From: Pyrinomonadaceae bacterium
Lineage (GTDB): Bacteria; Acidobacteriota; Blastocatellia; Pyrinomonadales; Pyrinomonadaceae
Length of the DNA: 64,000 nucleotides
Assembly (NCBI GenBank): GCA_021228405.1
Contig: JAJQRF010000008.1
Location: 1-64,000, forward strand
Direction of reading: 5' to 3'
Shown: positions 4,402 to 45,745 of the stretch, piece after piece
Numbering within the stretch: the first letter of the stretch is position 1
Layout: every line of letters starts with the position of its first letter
The notes under the pieces: model-generated
What the model was told of the DNA's origin: nothing
The model's input: only the letters and a program-made list of their open reading frames with translations
Databases searched by the model: none
Made by a program: the position numbers and the translations under genes

Positions 4402-4659
4402 TTAGCCGACGGGAACGATACCACAATCAGTCGTAACCGTTTTTTCTGCAAAGATGATGATGGAAGTGAATCCGACCGGAACGATTCCTGTAAATCCGAC
4501 CGGAACGATTCCTGTAAATCCGACCGGAACGATTCCGTTATCGACGCACGGGGTCGGCTCAGTTCCAGCGATGTCACTGACTAACAATCCATTTCCCGCA
4601 AAAGTCGTTCCAACCATCAAAACCAATGTCAAAGTAATTGCTGCTATAATGTTTCTCAT
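4402..4659 (-). CDS. Small secreted repeat peptide (GIVPVGFT repeats)
   Basis: An 85-residue precursor with a clear signal peptide (residues 1-21, cleavage near TFA-GN), then three head-to-tail octapeptides GIVPVGFT and a C-terminus that ends with the same GIVPVG. Two cysteines (PCVDN and TTDCG) flank the repeats. AGGAG precedes the ATG at normal distance and a strong terminator follows the stop, so it looks like a real short transcription unit. The repeats are 24-bp DNA repeats, two of them perfect. The gene is divergent from a membrane GGDEF-EAL gene 447 bp away. Function unknown: a secreted signal, a processed peptide or a structural peptide are all possible. Confidence 0.7.
   Translation of the reverse strand: MRNIIAAITLTLVLMVGTTFAGNGLLVSDIAGTEPTPCVDNGIVPVGFTGIVPVGFTGIVPVGFTSIIIFAEKTVTTDCGIVPVG
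4475..4548. repeat. 24-bp direct repeats inside the peptide gene
   Basis: About three copies of a 24-bp unit, two perfect and the third diverging at its end. Each contains the small dyad GGAA-CGA-TTCC. Read on the minus strand each unit encodes one GIVPVGFT octapeptide. Copy number could change by slippage. Confidence 0.8.
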
Positions 4660-9842: not shown

Positions 9843-12767
9843 ATGTTCCGGTTCAGCAGATTTCTGATAATTTTTCACTTATTTTTCTTTTTTCTTTTTT
9901 CAGTTGCCATAGTTCAAAGTGCGCCGCGCGATGTCGATGCCGGATTCAACCCGAAATTGACGATCGATCTGGTATCGAATTACAACGGCGGCGTGCTTAT
10001 TCAGCCCGACGGGAAAATGCTCGTCTACGGAACTGAATATCTTGTCTTTAAACCTTATTTCCAAAGATTGAATCCCGACGGAACGGTTGATCCGACGTTC
10101 AATTGTCCGGCTTGTCTTTCGTTCAATCCGAGCAGTATCAGCCTGCAACCCGACGGAAAAATTCTGATCGGCGGACAAAACATAGTTATCAGGGTAATGC
10201 CGAACGGCAGTCTGGATATTACTTATAAGACAAATTTCGCCGGCATCGGCGGTTGTCTGGTGACACAATTGAAACCGTTGCCGGACGGAAAAGCGTTGTT
10301 CGGATGTATCAACACTGCCGACTCGACTCCCCAGATCAGGCGTTTGAGTGCTAACGGCGTGATGGACTTGAGTTTCAATGCGACCGTTCTTACCAACAGA
10401 TTCACCATAAGTAGAATAATATCGCTGTCTGACGGAAAGTTTCTCAGCGCGGGCAAAAACTTTGATACGAATCGCGGCTGGATGCAAAGATACAATGCGG
10501 ACGGAACGATCGACAGTTCGTTTCAGACCGATATCAACGCAAACGTCGCGGATATTGACTTAACGGTTGACGGGAAATATATGATCGTCGGCGATTTTAC
10601 CTCGGTAAACAATATCGGACGTAACCGCATCGCCAGATTATTGCCCGACGGCAGTCCCGACCCGACGCTTATAGTCACGCTGCCGGGCGGAACGGTTTCT
10701 TCTCTCCGAATTCTCTCGAACGGTCAGTTTTACGTGAAATCATCCATCACCCAAATCACGACCATTTATAATCTTACCCGCTATAATCCTGACGGAAGCG
10801 TGGACAATACTTTCACCTTCCCGCTTAATCGCGGCACGTCCTGGACGGTGGATGGTTCAGACCGCGTCGTAGTCTTTAACGATACCGACCCGAGTCGCCG
10901 TTATTTCAGGCTCAATATCGACGGCAGTATCGATTTCACTTTCGCTCCGGTGTTGGGATATGAAGGCACGGTGACTGCCGCCGCGCTGCAAAGCGACGGG
11001 AAAGTGATCGTCGGCGGAAATTTCACGCGGGCGAACGGCATCCAATCCAAAAATCTTGCAAGGCTCAACGCGGACGGCACGACCGACACGACCTTTAACG
11101 TCGGAAGCGGTCTGAACGGCATCCCGCAAGAGATTACCGTGCAAGCAGACGGCAAAATTCTGGTCGGCGGAAACTTTACGCTTTACAACGACGCGACACG
11201 CAACAAATTATTGCGCCTCAATGCGGACGGCTCGCTCGATACGGCATTCGATCCGAATATCGACCCGACCGACGCGAATCGCGGCGTTTACGCGATCACG
11301 GTCGCGGCGGACGGGAAGATTCTTATCGGCGGAAACTTTACGACGGTTGCAGGTGTCAGCCGAACGGGTGCGGCGCGGCTGAACAGCGACGGCAGTTTCG
11401 ATGCTTCTTTTGTGCCGCCGACGCTCAATGCTCTTTTCATTACCGACACGATCGTCATTCAGCCGAACGGACAGATTCTTTTGGGCGGAAATCAAACCTT
11501 ATATCGTTTGGATGCAAACGGCACGCGAGATACGACCTTTGAGATTCCGATTGCCGGTCGCGTCAGTCAGGTCATTCCGCAAACGGACGGCAAATATCTG
11601 ATCTCCTATTCTGCAAATGTTACATACGGATTATTCCGTGCCAATAACAACGGTTCGTTCGATTTCAGTTTTAAGGGCATTTCAAACAGCAATTTCGCGG
11701 TTAATGCAATCTATCAACAACCGAACGGCAACGTTCTGATCGGCGGAACATTCAGTGCGCGCAACTTACAGCGCGTCGGTCCGAACGGGCAATGGGATTA
11801 CAGTTCCTTAAAATTCGGCGCGAACGGAACGGTTACAAAAATTCTCGGTCAGCCCGACGGAAAGGTGCTCGTTTTCGGACAGTTCAGCGGCATCGAAGAT
11901 AATCTGCGTTCGGGCGCGGCGCGTCTTTCGCTCCGAAAATCCTTAAACTACACCTACTTCGATTTCGACGGCGACGGACTTTCGGACGTTTCCGTTTTTC
12001 GTCCCTCGAACGGCGGCTGGTATGCCCTGCAAAGCTCGAACAACGCCTTATTCGCGGCAAACTTCGGGCAGACGGGCGACATTGCCGTTCCCGCCGATTA
12101 TGACGGCGACGGCAAAACCGACGTGGCGATCTTCCGCAACGGCGTTTGGTATTCGCTCCGCAGTTTCGACAACACCTTTGCCGGAATCAGCTTCGGGCAA
12201 GCGGGCGACATTCCCGTTCCGACCGATTTCGACGGCGATCAAAAGGTCGATCAAGCCGTCTATCGAAACGGCAACTGGTATCTGTATCTTTCGATCTTCG
12301 GATACATCAATCTGAATCTGGGCAATTCGACCGACATCCCGATGGCGGGCGATTTCACGGGCGACGGCACCGCCGATATTATGGTTTATCGTCCGTCAAA
12401 CGGCACCTGGTATCGCTCGTCGCCTTCAAACAACCAGGTTTTCGCAACCAATTTCGGCACAAGCGGCGATAAACCCGTCGCGGCTGATTACGACGGCGAC
12501 GGCACACTCGACATCGCGGTTTACCGCCCGTCGGTCGGCGATTGGTATTGGCTCAACAGTTCGGACGGCTCTTTCAGCGGCGTGCACTGGGGCACGAACG
12601 GCGACAAACCCGTGCCCGCCGACTACGACGGCGACGGGAAAACCGACATCGCCGTTTACCGCCCGTCCGACGGAACGTGGTATCTCCTGCAATCGACGGC
12701 AGGATTCAAGGCGGTCAATTGGGGAATCTCGACCGACATTCCGATTCCGAATGTTTACGTTCGTTAA
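9843..12767 (+). CDS. Secreted delta-60 propeller plus FG-GAP-type repeat protein
   Basis: A 974-residue exported protein. The ATG at 9843 is chosen over 9780 because AAGGAGG sits at 9831-9837 and the protein then begins with a signal peptide (cleavage near VQSA-PRD). Residues 25-700 are delta-60-type propeller repeats, recognisable by 'QPDGKILIGG' and 'RLNADGTxDTTF'. Residues 715-974 are FG-GAP/VCBS-like repeats with the Asp-rich calcium motif DxDGDGxxD followed by V/I-x-VFRPSNGxWY. No enzyme motif. The C-terminal 75 residues are nearly the same as those of the next gene. Probably a surface or extracellular structural protein; its partner is unknown. Confidence 0.85.
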   Translation: MFRFSRFLIIFHLFFFFLFSVAIVQSAPRDVDAGFNPKLTIDLVSNYNGGVLIQPDGKMLVYGTEYLVFKPYFQRLNPDGTVDPTFNCPACLSFNPSSISLQPDGKILIGGQNIVIRVMPNGSLDITYKTNFAGIGGCLVTQLKPLPDGKALFGCINTADSTPQIRRLSANGVMDLSFNATVLTNRFTISRIISLSDGKFLSAGKNFDTNRGWMQRYNADGTIDSSFQTDINANVADIDLTVDGKYMIVGDFTSVNNIGRNRIARLLPDGSPDPTLIVTLPGGTVSSLRILSNGQFYVKSSITQITTIYNLTRYNPDGSVDNTFTFPLNRGTSWTVDGSDRVVVFNDTDPSRRYFRLNIDGSIDFTFAPVLGYEGTVTAAALQSDGKVIVGGNFTRANGIQSKNLARLNADGTTDTTFNVGSGLNGIPQEITVQADGKILVGGNFTLYNDATRNKLLRLNADGSLDTAFDPNIDPTDANRGVYAITVAADGKILIGGNFTTVAGVSRTGAARLNSDGSFDASFVPPTLNALFITDTIVIQPNGQILLGGNQTLYRLDANGTRDTTFEIPIAGRVSQVIPQTDGKYLISYSANVTYGLFRANNNGSFDFSFKGISNSNFAVNAIYQQPNGNVLIGGTFSARNLQRVGPNGQWDYSSLKFGANGTVTKILGQPDGKVLVFGQFSGIEDNLRSGAARLSLRKSLNYTYFDFDGDGLSDVSVFRPSNGGWYALQSSNNALFAANFGQTGDIAVPADYDGDGKTDVAIFRNGVWYSLRSFDNTFAGISFGQAGDIPVPTDFDGDQKVDQAVYRNGNWYLYLSIFGYINLNLGNSTDIPMAGDFTGDGTADIMVYRPSNGTWYRSSPSNNQVFATNFGTSGDKPVAADYDGDGTLDIAVYRPSVGDWYWLNSSDGSFSGVHWGTNGDKPVPADYDGDGKTDIAVYRPSDGTWYLLQSTAGFKAVNWGISTDIPIPNVYVR

Positions 12768-14868: not shown

Positions 14869-15160
14869 CAATAATGCAGGGGCAGGTTTGTGCATATTAT
14901 GTAGGGACAGGTCTTGTGCATATATGTAGGGGCAGGTCTTGTGCCTGCCCGATGAGCGAAGCGAAGATTTCCATCGCAATCGCACAATGCAATCATTAAT
15001 CGTTAATGTAGGGGCAGGTCTTGTGCCTGCCCGATGAGCGAAGCGAAAATTTCCATTGCAATCGCACAATGCAATCATTAATCGTTATTTCAGCCATTCG
15101 GCTGATTGGGCAGGCACAAGACCTGCCCCTACATTCTCGGCACAAGACCTGCCCCTACTT
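14869..15160. repeat. REP-like palindromic elements, 82-bp tandem copies plus inverted copies
   Basis: The core GTAGGGGCAGGTCTTGTG followed by CCTGCCC has the 7-bp stem GGGCAGG/CCTGCCC. Full cores lie at 14926-14950 and 15008-15032 within two tandem 82-bp units (14924-15005 and 15006-15087), which differ by very few bases. Partial cores lie at 14877-14895 and 14901-14921. Inverted copies lie at 15108-15132 and 15139-15158. Similar GTAGGGGC...GCCCCTAC elements are common intergenic repeats in several phyla. Opposed copies could fold into a long hairpin and end the upstream operon. Confidence 0.85.
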
Positions 15161-15230
15161 TTTTCGGCAAAAAATATACTGAATAAACGATTTTGTGACG
15201 GCGTTTTAGGGCAAAGCGAATCCGCATTGT

Positions 15231-15494
15231 ATTAGCGGGAGTTCCCTCTGCATTAGCGGGAGTTCCCACTACGTCAGCGGGAGTTCCCTCTGCTCTAAAA
15301 GGAGTTCCTTCTGCTCTAAAAGGTATTCCCTCTAAAGTAAAAGGAGTTCCTTCTGCTCTAAAAGGAGTTCCTTCCGGGCTGGAAGGAATTCCCTCTAGGC
15401 TGGAAGGAACTCCTTCCGGACTAAAAGGAGTTCCCGCTGATGCAAAAGGAGTTCCCGCTGACGCAGAAGGAACTCCTTCCGCAGTAAAAGGGAA
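15231..15494. repeat. 21-bp tandem array A, dyad-centred units
   Basis: Twelve full 21-bp units begin at 15231 and every 21 bp after, with a partial thirteenth. Each unit is centred on GGA-[GT/AC/AT]-TCC, with flanks that often change together (GGGA/TCCC, AAGGA/TCCTT, GGAAGGA/TCCTTCC). Since 21 is divisible by three, the minus strand stays open as heptapeptides of the type GTPFRAE, but that frame has only a TTG start and no useful ribosome binding site, so I do not call a gene. There are no spacers, so it is not CRISPR. Confidence 0.8.
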
Positions 15495-15575
15495 AGAAAA
15501 CGACTCCTTCACCAACCCTTTCGGAACATTGTTATTAATATTTGTAAAATTATACAATCCTTATTAATAAAAATA

Positions 15576-15605: not shown

Positions 15606-15685
15606 GCGTTCATTCATTTATTTTCATACTTTTGCACGGTCTTTTAAAGACAAATAATAAATATTTTATTGGAGGATATTTCAAT

Positions 15686-16381
15686 ATGGCGAATGAAGAT
15701 AAAGATGTAATTCCTACTGCTGAAGAGGGACGCAACACGATGCTTCAATTGATGAAGTTGAATTTACCCGTGCACGGCGCGACGCTCGGTTTGACGAATG
15801 CAGAGGTGGCGCAGACCGTTGCCGATGCGAATGCTTACGCTTATTTGCGAACGTGGCGCGATGCGGCGGAGGCTTTCGGCAAGGAAGCGTCCGCGTTTCT
15901 GAACCTGATAACCGACGAAGAACCCGGCACACCGACGAGCGATCTGCCGACGTTCGATCCGCCGCCGCTCGGCGATGTCACGTTTCTGGTCGGAATTGTC
16001 CGCCGGCTTCGCTTGCTGATTCGGAAAATAAAAGCGTCGGCAAATTTTAACGAATCGATCGGGCGCGACCTTTATATTATCCGCGACAGCGAACGCACCC
16101 CGAACAACGAAAAGAAACCGACGCTCGAAGCCGCCGCGCTGGTCAATGATAAGGTCGAACTGAAATTTAACAAGCAGGGAATGAAAGCCGTCCGCATCAG
16201 GCGTTTACTGGCAGACGGAACGGCGCAAAACCTTGCCGACCCGACGACCAGCCCGTTCATCGACAACACGCCGTCGCCGAACAATCAACCCGAAAAACGC
16301 CAGTATCAAGCCGTCTATCTCGAAAACAACGAACCCGTCGGTCAATATTCCGACATCGTTGTCGTCGTCACAACACCTTAG
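15686..16381 (+). CDS. Uncharacterised protein with Fn3-like C-terminal half
   Basis: A 231-residue soluble protein without signal peptide. The ATG at 15686 is preferred to 15632 because GGAGG lies at 15671-15675. The N-terminal part (1-90) looks helical, with the pattern LGLTNAEVAQTVADANAYAYLRTWRDAAEAFGKEASAF. A proline-rich linker follows. The C-terminal 90 residues look like a beta-sandwich of fibronectin-III type (ending QYQAVYLENNEPVGQYSDIVVVVTTP). I do not recognise a family with known function. It has its own promoter (15576-15605) directly after array A, and no operon partners. Confidence 0.7.
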   Translation: MANEDKDVIPTAEEGRNTMLQLMKLNLPVHGATLGLTNAEVAQTVADANAYAYLRTWRDAAEAFGKEASAFLNLITDEEPGTPTSDLPTFDPPPLGDVTFLVGIVRRLRLLIRKIKASANFNESIGRDLYIIRDSERTPNNEKKPTLEAAALVNDKVELKFNKQGMKAVRIRRLLADGTAQNLADPTTSPFIDNTPSPNNQPEKRQYQAVYLENNEPVGQYSDIVVVVTTP

Positions 16382-16383
16382 AT

Positions 16384-16482
16384 TAACTGAGAAGTGTGAA
16401 GATTAACTGAGAAGTGAGAAGTGAGAAATGAGAAGTGGATAAGAATATCTTTTAATTATCCGTTCTCAGTTCTCACTTCTCC
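16384..16482. repeat. Low-complexity inverted repeat
   Basis: Direct repeats of TTAACTGAGAAGTG and GAGAAGTG on the left (16384-16440) face their reverse complement at 16458-16481 across an AT loop. It lies between convergent genes and may serve as a shared terminator. The same layout recurs at 35733. Confidence 0.65.
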
Positions 16483-21840: not shown

Positions 21841-22335
21841 GTGGATGTATTGTGGAGTCCGTGGCGATACGATTACATCAAGGGCGGTGATAAGCCGACA
21901 ACTGCCGATCAATGCAGTTGTGTATTTTGCGGTGTTTTAAATAACTCGGCGACTGATGAAGAAAACTTCATTCTTCATCGCGCCGAGTTTAATTTTGTCA
22001 TTCTGAACATTTATCCATACATCACGGGACACCTGATGGTCGTTCCCTTCGCACATCTCGCCGACATCGACCGCGCCGAAAAACCGGCAACCGACGAATT
22101 GATGGATTTAGCGAAAAAAAGTCAAACCATCCTGCGCGAAGTTTACCAGCCGAACGGTTTCAATCTCGGAATGAATCTCGGCAAAGCGGGCGGCGCGGGC
22201 GTTGCCGAACATTTTCATCTGCACATTATGCCGCGCTGGATCGGCGACGTGAATTTTATGACCTCGATCGCCGAAACGCGCACGATTCCCGAAGCTCTCC
22301 AAACTACTTACGACAAACTGAAAGGAAAATACTAA
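21841..22335 (+). CDS. HIT-family nucleotide hydrolase/phosphorylase
   Basis: A 164-residue histidine-triad protein. It starts with GTG 12 bp after the HU stop; the N-terminus MDVLWSPWRYDYI matches family members of the Ap4A phosphorylase-like branch. CSCVFC may bind zinc. The catalytic triad is AEHFHLHIMPRW. Expected activity is cleavage of dinucleoside polyphosphates such as Ap4A or of AMP-lysine type adducts; the exact substrate cannot be read from sequence. Position after an HU gene suggests growth-related housekeeping expression. Confidence 0.9.
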   Translation: MDVLWSPWRYDYIKGGDKPTTADQCSCVFCGVLNNSATDEENFILHRAEFNFVILNIYPYITGHLMVVPFAHLADIDRAEKPATDELMDLAKKSQTILREVYQPNGFNLGMNLGKAGGAGVAEHFHLHIMPRWIGDVNFMTSIAETRTIPEALQTTYDKLKGKY

Positions 22336-22359: not shown

Positions 22360-22569
22360 AAAAATCATCAGCGATGAAAATGTTTCATTGCCCGATAAGT
22401 TACTTTCAGCGGTCGCTGAAACACTTTCAGCGACCGCTATTTCTCTTTCATTGAGCAATGAAACACTTTCAGCGCGTGATAATTCTGTTTCATTGCACGA
22501 TGAAACACTTTCAGCGATCAATAAGTTACTTTCAGCGGTCGCTGAAACACTTTCAGCAGTCAAGTTTTT
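22360..22569. repeat. 21-bp tandem array B with covarying palindromes
   Basis: Ten 21-bp units start at about 22360 and every 21 bp after. Alternate units (22402, 22444, 22486, 22528) hold near-perfect 18-bp palindromes: TTTCAGCG-GT-CGCTGAAA twice, TTTCATTG-AG-CAATGAAA, and TTTCATTG-CA-CGATGAAA. Intervening units keep mostly the left arm ACTTTCAGCG, so there is a 42-bp higher-order period. The arm changes GCG/CGC to TTG/CAA are compensatory. There are no spacers, so it is not CRISPR. It fills the 3' gap between convergent HIT and 7TM-HD genes. Confidence 0.85.
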
Positions 22570-22604
22570 TTTTCAAAAAAGCGCAGCTGAACGCTTTGGC
22601 TGTT

Positions 22605-25067
22605 TTATTTAACGGTTTTCGCTTCGGCTTTGGTGTCGGGCGGATGCGAATGCTCGACGGCTTCGTCTTCGACTTCGCCGCCTTTGCTGATCGGGATTTC
22701 GCGCGGACTCGAATAATGGATTCCGCGTTCTTCGGAGTCGAGCAATTCCTTCGGAACGACGAGCTTCTGCATCGATGACGGCGGTGTGTAGCCCGGATAA
22801 TCGACGCGCGAATGATAGATCGAAACGAGCGATTTTATCATCGATTCGCGAATCTGCGTCAACTCCCGCAAGGTCAGATCGCATTCATCGAGTTGGTCGT
22901 CCGCAAGAATCGCGTCGATGATTTTTGTGACGATGTAACGGATATTTTCGGGATTAGGCTCATCGAGCGAACGCGCCGCCGCTTCGCAACTGTCGGCGAT
23001 CATCATAATCGCGGCTTCGCGAAACTGCGGTTTCGGTCCCGGGTAACGAAAATCGTTTTCGTCGATCTCGGCTTCGTCACGCGCTTCGCCCTGCGCTTTT
23101 TTCAGGAAATAATGCAAGGTTCGCGTGCCGTGATGTTGCGGGATAAAGTCGATGATTCTCTGCGGCAAACCCATTTCCTTGCCGAGCTTGATGCCGTAAG
23201 TGACGTGGCTGACGATGATCTTTGCGCTCTGCGCCGGACGCAGACGGTCGTGCGGATTCTTGCCCGTCTGATTTTCGACGAAATGTTCGGGCGCGGCGGT
23301 TTTGCCGATGTCGTGATAAAGCGCGCCGATGCGCGAGAGCAGTCCGTTTCCGCCGACGACGCGGCAGGCTTCTTCCGCCAATTGCCCGACGGCGTGCGAA
23401 TGCTGATTCGTTCCCGGCGCACGAAGCGCAAGCTGTCCGAGAATCGGCAGATCGGCGTTTGAAAGTTCGAGCAGTTTTACGTCGGTCAGAATTCCGAACG
23501 TATTTTCACAGATCGGCAGAAAAACCGCGGTCACGGCGGCAGTCGCGATTCCGCTTCCGAGTCCGCAGGCAACCGCCAGCATAACCGTGTTCAAAATAAA
23601 CGGCTGTTGCGTGTAAGCGATCAGCGCAATCGCCGTCAGAGCACTTGCGATACCAACCAGAACGCCCGCCAAAGTCACGGTTTGACGGCTTCGGTAACGC
23701 CCGATACCGTAAACCGAAACACTCGAAGCAAGCGTTGCATAAATAACGAATTCGAGTCCGCGCGGCGCGATTATCCCGGCGATCAAGGCGTTGAAAAGTC
23801 CCGTAAAGATCGCCGTTCGTCTATCCGCCAGAAGCGTCATCAACAGCGAACCGAACGCAAACGGAATCGCAAAACTCCAGAGCGACGGATCGTTGAGCGG
23901 TGCTTTGACGTTTTGAATCGCGGTAAATTCGGCAATCCGAAAGAAAACCGCCATCAAAGCCGTCTGCACGAAAACGATGAAACCGAAGAGCGCAAAGGTT
24001 TTTTCTTCAGAAAGTGCCAGACGCGGAACGATGCCGCGATGCTGGACGAATTTCCAGGCGACCCAAAACAGTGCGGAAATCAAGATCAAAAGCCCGATAA
24101 AACGATTGATGCGGCGGCTCGACTGGCTGTAATTTTGAATCGCGGCGATCTGCGAAAGGTCTTCCGAAGTCACCGTGTCGCCTTCGCGCACGATGGTTTG
24201 ACCGCGTTTGAGCGAAACCGTCACGGGCTGAACGCTGTCGCTGCTCGCCTGTTTTGACGATTGCGTCGCCACGCTGTCATAAAAAACGGTCGGTTCGATC
24301 AAGGCTTCGGTCGCTTTATAAAATGCTTCGACCTCTTTCGGCGAAAAGCTTTTTATCTCGACCAGCCGCGATCTCAGATTTTTGCGCGCATCGGAAAGTT
24401 TTGTCCAATTGGATTCGGGCATCGAAACGGTCAATTGCGAACTCGGACGAGTGCGGTCGAAAACCGAAACTTCGTTTTGAAAATGCTGACTTTCGATGTC
24501 GTCGTAAATGTACCCCTCGGAACTTTCGCGCAATCCCGTGCGGACGGCTTCGATCTCGTTGCGGCTGAAATTTCGGGAAGCTAAAACCTTTCCGACCTCG
24601 TCGCCGCCGCTTCCCGACCAGTGCGTTTCGTTTTTCAGATCGGCGTTGGATTGTTTCGAGTTCGTGTTTGAACTGCTTTCGTCGCCGTGACGCTGGAGTT
24701 TTTCAAAAGCGGAAAGAAATCTTTGGACGGCTTGCTCGGCTTTGTTCGACTCGAAACGAAAGATCGGTTTGACGGTTTCGCCCGCCACTTGCCGAATGCG
24801 TTCGGTTTCGGCTTCATCGACCGAATAAATATCGGCGGGTGAAATAATACTTTCGCGGGCGATGTCGCCTTCCTTGTAAATCGCTTCGTTCGAGCCGCGC
24901 CAGAGCGGGTTGGTGATGAGCAAGGTCGTCAAAAAACACAAAACCGCAAAGCCGAACCAGAACTTCTGCTGATCGGAGAATTTTCCGACCAGACGCGAAA
25001 TTTTCTGCTTCAGCATTTTGCGCCATTTGTTCAGCGGTGAAGCCAAATCTTCGACTCGTTTACTCAT
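22605..25067 (-). CDS. 7TM-HD phosphodiesterase (PgpH/YqfF-like, probable c-di-AMP hydrolase)
   Basis: An 820-residue membrane protein. One TM helix near the N-terminus (residues 35-55) is followed by an extracytoplasmic 7TMR-HDED-like domain (60-320), seven TM helices (330-520) and a cytoplasmic HD domain (about 540-740) with the metal pair YHDIGK at His585-Asp586 and upstream NQHSHAVGQLAEEA. The family known from Listeria PgpH degrades c-di-AMP. The C-terminal 50 residues are charged and variable. It lies 13 bp after hflX and is probably co-transcribed with it. The family usually sits next to phoH and ybeY, which are not here. Confidence 0.9.
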   Translation of the reverse strand: MSKRVEDLASPLNKWRKMLKQKISRLVGKFSDQQKFWFGFAVLCFLTTLLITNPLWRGSNEAIYKEGDIARESIISPADIYSVDEAETERIRQVAGETVKPIFRFESNKAEQAVQRFLSAFEKLQRHGDESSSNTNSKQSNADLKNETHWSGSGGDEVGKVLASRNFSRNEIEAVRTGLRESSEGYIYDDIESQHFQNEVSVFDRTRPSSQLTVSMPESNWTKLSDARKNLRSRLVEIKSFSPKEVEAFYKATEALIEPTVFYDSVATQSSKQASSDSVQPVTVSLKRGQTIVREGDTVTSEDLSQIAAIQNYSQSSRRINRFIGLLILISALFWVAWKFVQHRGIVPRLALSEEKTFALFGFIVFVQTALMAVFFRIAEFTAIQNVKAPLNDPSLWSFAIPFAFGSLLMTLLADRRTAIFTGLFNALIAGIIAPRGLEFVIYATLASSVSVYGIGRYRSRQTVTLAGVLVGIASALTAIALIAYTQQPFILNTVMLAVACGLGSGIATAAVTAVFLPICENTFGILTDVKLLELSNADLPILGQLALRAPGTNQHSHAVGQLAEEACRVVGGNGLLSRIGALYHDIGKTAAPEHFVENQTGKNPHDRLRPAQSAKIIVSHVTYGIKLGKEMGLPQRIIDFIPQHHGTRTLHYFLKKAQGEARDEAEIDENDFRYPGPKPQFREAAIMMIADSCEAAARSLDEPNPENIRYIVTKIIDAILADDQLDECDLTLRELTQIRESMIKSLVSIYHSRVDYPGYTPPSSMQKLVVPKELLDSEERGIHYSSPREIPISKGGEVEDEAVEHSHPPDTKAEAKTVK

Positions 25068-35725: not shown

Positions 35726-35732
35726 TGATTAA

Positions 35733-35838
35733 ATGGAAAATGGAAAGTGAAAAACGGAAAATGAAATACAGATAAATCAATTGATATTAAAAGATTTTTT
35801 TCCTTAATTTTCCATTTTCCGTTTTCCGTTTTCCGTTT
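35733..35838. repeat. AT-rich inverted repeat between cpxR and cpxA
   Basis: GGAAAATGGAAAGTG plus ACGGAAAATG on the left face CATTTTCCGTTTTCCGTTTT on the right around an AT loop. In the mRNA it would form a long hairpin between the two coding regions and could lower cpxA expression relative to cpxR. Similar in style to 16384-16482. Confidence 0.6.
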
Positions 35839-45693: not shown

Positions 45694-45745
45694 TTTTCCC
45701 CTTTTCATTTTTAATTTTTAACTTTGAATTTTTAACTTGAACGGT

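Follow-up and report, generated by a model that had tools for sequence, protein, structure and literature searches.

The window analysed here, a 64-kb stretch of DNA, carries between two converging genes a tandem array with a 21-bp step at positions 22362-22571, which comprises nine in-register units from 22383 and a degenerate unit ahead of them. The features of the locus are as follows.

21841..22335, plus strand: HIT-domain gene, the upstream neighbour, its stop codon some 27 bp ahead of the leading unit
22362..22382: degenerate leading unit, palindrome TCATCAGCGATGA, read directly; repeat family D1 begins at 22372
22383..22571: array core, nine 21-bp units in register (direct reading, TRF and lag identity)
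22404..22421: palindrome TTTCAGCGGTCGCTGAAA, 0 mismatches
22408..22438, plus strand: 14-pair stem around the second dyad centre, loop CAC, with ATTTCTCTTT after it
22446..22463: palindrome TTTCATTGAGCAATGAAA, variant arm pair
22488..22505: palindrome TTTCATTGCACGATGAAA, 1 arm mismatch
22530..22547: palindrome TTTCAGCGGTCGCTGAAA, second exact copy
22605..25067, minus strand: 7TM-HD gene, the convergent neighbour on the far side of the array

The first-pass annotation of this DNA had described a 21-bp array with a 42-bp super-period, in which alternate units keep one arm only, and our data agree on both points. Periodicity, super-period and symmetry of the array are real. Lag identity reaches 0.57 at 21 bp, 0.70 at 42, 0.56 at 63 and 0.66 at 84, as against 0.16 at lag 20 and 0.18 at lag 22, and TRF reported one row with period 21 (22402-22561) and another with period 42 (22392-22557). 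Four 18-bp palindromes are spaced 42 bp apart and the weaker units between them hold just the left arm, so that in the core a unit of the form TTTCA[GC/TT]G-N2-C[GC/AA]TGAAA-N3 alternates with one whose right half is degenerate. The two blocks of this TTTCAGC family are TTTCAGC and GCTGAAA in a 7+4+7+3 layout. The 42-bp super-period is not peculiar to this array, as the best multiples across arrays were 21 (36 cases), 42 (24), 63 (9) and 84 (3).

The annotation had also held that both arms of the palindromes change together, and here our results differ. When the right arms were redealt among the units, pairing was unchanged, with 0.60 vs 0.57 for the window array (p 0.34) and 0.725 vs 0.716 for three TTTCAGC-family arrays pooled (p 0.33). 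The apparent paired change in the window array comes down to a single type of swap, GC to TT/AA. Besides, arms that drift independently, which the annotation itself had set against its claim, occur in this genome's two sister arrays, which hold the unmatched arms TTTCAGG/GCTGAAA, TTTCAGT/GCTGAAA and GTTCAGC/GCTGAAA. Compensatory evolution within the TTTCAGC family is rejected, since the arm-redeal test gave no signal.

Folded as RNA, the stretch 22360-22569 reaches -76.1 kcal/mol vs -42.9 +/- 4.1 kcal/mol in shuffles (z -8.0). Under a stricter control, in which the 21 columns are permuted alike in every unit and the periodicity is retained, the first five units of the array gave a z of -8.3 (p<0.01) and the second five a z of -1.8 (p 0.04). 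The stem at 22408-22438 resembles a terminator that would serve the HIT gene. An Rfam search of the 64-kb window returned no match above the gathering score. On the minus strand a reading frame is open across the whole array, for which no Pfam match was found.

When 1.664 Mb of the 5.72-Mb Pyrinomonadaceae genome were scanned for tandem repeats, 58 clusters had a period of 21 or a multiple of it. A few of these are coding or other repeats; 52 remained after exclusions, and a stricter rule gave 44 merged arrays. Extrapolated to the whole genome, the total is estimated at roughly 150-200 arrays. Further arrays, for which the annotation had recommended a search, are thus plentiful. In the same 1.664 Mb, windows with at least 60% identity numbered 50 at lag 21, 49 at lag 42 and 42 at lag 63, whereas the neighbouring lags 19, 20, 22 and 23 gave 2, 7, 1 and 1, and the lag spectrum showed period 21 only and not 15, 18 or 24. 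Inside the arrays, lags 7 and 14 showed no excess of identity. Units differ from family to family and are mostly unrelated in sequence between arrays, yet all keep the fixed 21-bp period. A search of open-access full text found no literature on 21-bp arrays in Acidobacteriota.

Within the same genome, two sister arrays share the TTTCAGC-family unit (C6:11443-11634 and C4:1077366-1077567). The window itself contains a second array, which has a sister at G000:C4:476060-476283.

15193..15508: second array of the window, unit GGAGTTCCYTCTGCTCTAAAA, unrelated to that of the first and dyad-symmetric (TRF, fold test)

Next to this second array, at 14874-15148, repeats of GTAGGGGCAGGTCTTGTGCCTGCCC occur in both orientations together with an inverted copy; they look like a separate dispersed palindromic repeat. 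Downstream of it lies a called gene (15632-16378) with a likely start ATG near 15686, MANEDKDVIPTAEEGRN..., and a gene in the corresponding downstream position at the C6 sister array, which starts with MYDSKDLGNLSDRELLAESR, is perhaps distantly similar to it.

Ten array queries against the own genome gave between 1 and 6 loci per family. The loci compared within a family have no collinear register, and their flanks are mostly unlike apart from other short repeats, which argues that whole loci are not, as a rule, copied; the pair C6:132182 / C7:1084466, of composite structure, is the only one that matches along both of its parts. Such composite arrays change their unit along their length. In column entropy, the same columns are conserved at separate loci of a family, the correlation between loci reaching 0.87 and lying mostly at 0.4-0.8 for the closest pairs. 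Identical units are common to separate loci above expectation (4 vs 1.0, 2 vs 0.04 and 1 vs 0.002), so part of the common conservation may be due to copying, and some exchange between loci is likely. In two places, L135 2270-2524 and G000:C9:146395-146633, we also noticed inverted units or a switch of unit orientation part-way.

With regard to symmetry, the class is divided. About 40% of the arrays are dyad-symmetric, including that at 22362-22571, and may be viewed as one block paired with its reverse complement, short variable gaps lying between; the rest are directional, with two unlike blocks. Of 81 array segments, 33 outperform their own column-permuted versions in the fold test (p<=0.01), and most others look uniform; the remaining segments, about 44-48, show no clear fold excess and yet have the same period, location and helical phasing. 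Dyad symmetry as a general principle was rejected, as the symmetry of the consensus is significant in just 5 of 51 units and the fold test, which is more sensitive, splits the class. Since directional arrays lack a fold excess, hairpin formation is not what unites the class; it is united by geometry.

This geometry is visible in the column entropy of 34 dereplicated families, whose largest Fourier component lies at 10.5 bp (0.199 vs 0.10 expected, p<0.0005 by permutation). The peak is found in the dyad and the directional class separately, was the top harmonic in 12 of 12 parameter settings (p<0.002 over the 34 families in each of them) and gave p 0.0005 against an AR(1) null near the observed lag-1 correlation; under a stronger AR(1) null of 0.4 the peak alone has a p of 0.15 and the hole at 7 bp is still significant. 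Within a unit, two conserved blocks stand about 10.5 bp apart with variable bases between them. As 21 bp is exactly two turns of B-DNA, the 10.5-bp peak implies that the conserved bases share one helical face and that each unit begins exactly two turns after the last. The AA/TT steps show no 10.5-bp phasing: their autocorrelation is below zero at lags 10-11 and above it at 6 and 15, so that intrinsic curvature through phased A-tracts is unsupported. A faint pattern common to the families amounts to 5.74 bits vs at most 5.12 in column-permuted controls.

The placement of the 44 merged arrays relative to genes was taken from gene calls made in this analysis, with expectations by intergenic length. 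Tandem gaps hold 29 of them, convergent gaps 12, divergent gaps 2, and one lies inside a called frame. Convergent gaps are favoured (12 vs 6.4 expected, p 0.03) and divergent gaps, that is promoter gaps, are avoided (2 vs 9.8 expected, p 0.003). The preference for convergent gaps is modest, and divergent gaps could be avoided simply because promoters do not tolerate arrays. Among 73 flanking proteins no common function emerged, and there was no common family and no common initiator or partition gene next to the arrays (both for the 25 most frequent of 128 families).

The distribution in relatives is patchy. The matching convergent gap between the HIT and 7TM-HD genes is without an array in L028 and L031, and about 1.5 Mb from relatives held no comparable array except in G074, a genome of genus g17. 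This genome has at least three arrays, with the units GGGTTCCCGATATCTTATACC and GGAATGGTATTCCGCAATTGC and one around GCGAGTGCTCGC, and three unit families have matches in genomes of that genus (CATCGGCAA..., TTCGAGTT... and TGTTTTTCNNCATCTGTCAGT). The TTTCAGC family was not found among the relatives searched, where one 22-base match (E 0.006) occurred in G030.

Of the readings offered by the annotation, that of a multi-site protein-binding array is favoured over plain slippage or an RNA, because the arrays form a genome-wide class and their conserved columns follow the helical period of DNA. That they are multi-site arrays bound by protein on one face of the DNA, perhaps with a BIME-like role at gene ends, is an explanation in which we place roughly even confidence. 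The 21-bp unit, repeated about 5-20 times per intergenic array, would in each case be a putative double-stranded site for a protein dimer, with half-sites that would be inverted in dyad arrays and unequal in directional ones. The exact two-turn step would put neighbouring proteins on the same face and could support cooperative binding side by side. Slippage or recombination in steps of a whole 21-bp unit would account for the multiplication and turnover of units, and other loci would be seeded with new arrays. The least certain part is a role at the borders of genes, in topology or insulation, where the arrays might for instance attract a nucleoid or topology protein in the manner of enterobacterial BIME/REP clusters; it is suggested by the avoidance of promoter-only gaps and the preference for gene ends. 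A point against protein binding is the large number of proteins that a separate specificity for each family would require.

In this context, several known systems offer themselves for comparison. Plasmid iterons and ParR/parC-type centromeres are direct repeats of about 20-22 bp with proteins on one helical face and cooperative binding at multiple sites, and there is one array per replicon beside a rep or par gene. The 21-bp arrays resemble them in their helical register, with period 21 and a 10.5-bp conservation on one face, and differ in number and neighbourhood, since we estimate well over a hundred chromosomal arrays without a rep or par neighbour. BIME clusters, such as BIME-2 of enterobacteria, are bound by gyrase, IHF and Pol I. 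REP copies are dispersed and intergenic, may cluster and favour convergent gene ends (PMC1525189), and another study describes them as palindromes of 20-40 bp, most of them in two super-families (PMC3733652). Like these, the 21-bp arrays occur in many dispersed intergenic copies, are often palindromic, may cluster, have a proposed role in protein binding at gene ends and favour convergent over divergent gaps. A palindromic hairpin unit is present in the array at 22362-22571 but is not general in a class that is dyad-symmetric to about 40%; moreover, the 21-bp class differs from REP/BIME in its strict head-to-tail arrangement, its many unrelated unit families and the fact that more than half of it is non-palindromic. 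RAYT-associated REPs likewise comprise several dispersed repeat families per genome, and nine Y1_Tnp genes (PF01797, RAYT-like), one copy with a stop codon, are found here. In contrast to such REPs, the 21-bp units are tandem and often not hairpins, and just one of the nine genes (G000:C9:118543-118887) has a known array less than 1 kb away, at about 700 bp. This is about chance level.

Cyanobacterial STRR/LTRR and the TAACTGA heptamer repeats of Beggiatoaceae and cyanobacteria are short tandem repeats that abound between genes and whose function is unproven. The TAACTGA repeats consist of one 7-bp sequence, with 169 sets in one genome, and lie mostly just upstream of start codons in the Maribeggiatoa genome (PMC4679880). 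The 21-bp arrays share with both the abundance of short intergenic tandem repeats; in contrast, their units are degenerate and not perfect 7-bp repeats, fall into dozens of sequence families and favour gene ends. Short heptamer tandem repeats of differing sequence do occur in the window (9882-9901, 16408-16437, 35731-35763, 35808-35838 and 45702-45735), and 7-mers similar to them were seen in several relatives (L033, L044, L058, L070, L081 and L087). A different dispersed repeat type, with 42-bp repeats carrying GGCTCTGCC/GGGCAAAGCCC motifs, is located at L130 13008-13497 (G000:C6:113008-113497) and is similar to stretches that flank other arrays (L004 1100-1300).

The main rival, to which we attach a smaller though substantial likelihood, is a neutral or selfish minisatellite. 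One ancestral 21-bp array would have spread by copying of small pieces, its letters drifting and being homogenised locally, so that the period would be a fossil kept by turnover in whole units, without function, and the location would reflect tolerance outside promoters. This would explain the patchy distribution, with the empty HIT/7TM-HD gaps and the array-free majority of the relatives scanned. The best super-period that differs among arrays (42, 63 or 84), as segmental duplication would give, the composite arrays, the identical units at separate loci and the weak pattern across families above its column-permuted controls also agree with it. However, the 10.5-bp phasing over 34 families is not easily explained by neutral drift, under which one would likewise not expect the same columns to be conserved at separate loci, and unit families are kept across genera, as the matches in g17 indicate. 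If the arrays are neutral, they are a clean natural case of a repeat period that outlives its sequence.

A more far-reaching version of the protein-binding reading is tentative, and we consider it rather doubtful: the arrays may be an undescribed class of Pyrinomonadaceae elements, more than 100 in number, in which each family would be a platform for its own or a diversified binder within a system of gene boundaries or chromosome architecture, with geometry conserved and sequence free. Bacterial genomes rarely show a repeat class with a fixed step length but free letters. Should the phasing reflect filaments or platforms of protein at the ends of genes, chromosome organisation in a little-studied phylum would have a signature that can be read from sequence.

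The annotation had alternatively proposed a multi-hairpin RNA, which would act at transcript 3' ends as terminator or mRNA stabiliser. At this locus the terminator-like 14-pair stem behind the HIT gene and the very stable fold speak for it, as do, in the class, the 33 segments that beat their permuted folds and the bias towards gene ends. As a general function it is disfavoured: directional arrays, which make up over half of the class, show no better folding than controls with permuted columns, in spite of the shared period, location and phasing. Together with the missing covariation in the TTTCAGC family, the lack of an Rfam match in the window and a conservation period that is a property of duplex DNA, this makes a hairpin RNA improbable as an explanation of the class.

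Repeats that encode seven residues each (21 = 3 x 7), as part of small or extended proteins, are very improbable. The open minus-strand frame through the window array and a slight excess of open frames (55 vs 48 of 77 in controls) are compatible with coding, but the unit variation has no third-position pattern (codon phase at p<0.05 in 1 of 65 arrays, 3.0-bp harmonic depleted), period 21 occurs without 15, 18 or 24, and the array-spanning frame has no Pfam match. Least probable of all are rut arrays, C-rich and G-poor transcripts that load Rho: several units are indeed G-poor on one strand, but the skew has the wrong sign, as the transcript strand in tandem gene pairs is slightly G-rich (mean C-G skew -0.076, t -2.3).

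Apart from the 21-bp class, the window contains at 4469-4536 a perfect 24-bp tandem repeat of 2.8 copies, with a length that is a multiple of three and which is perhaps coding.
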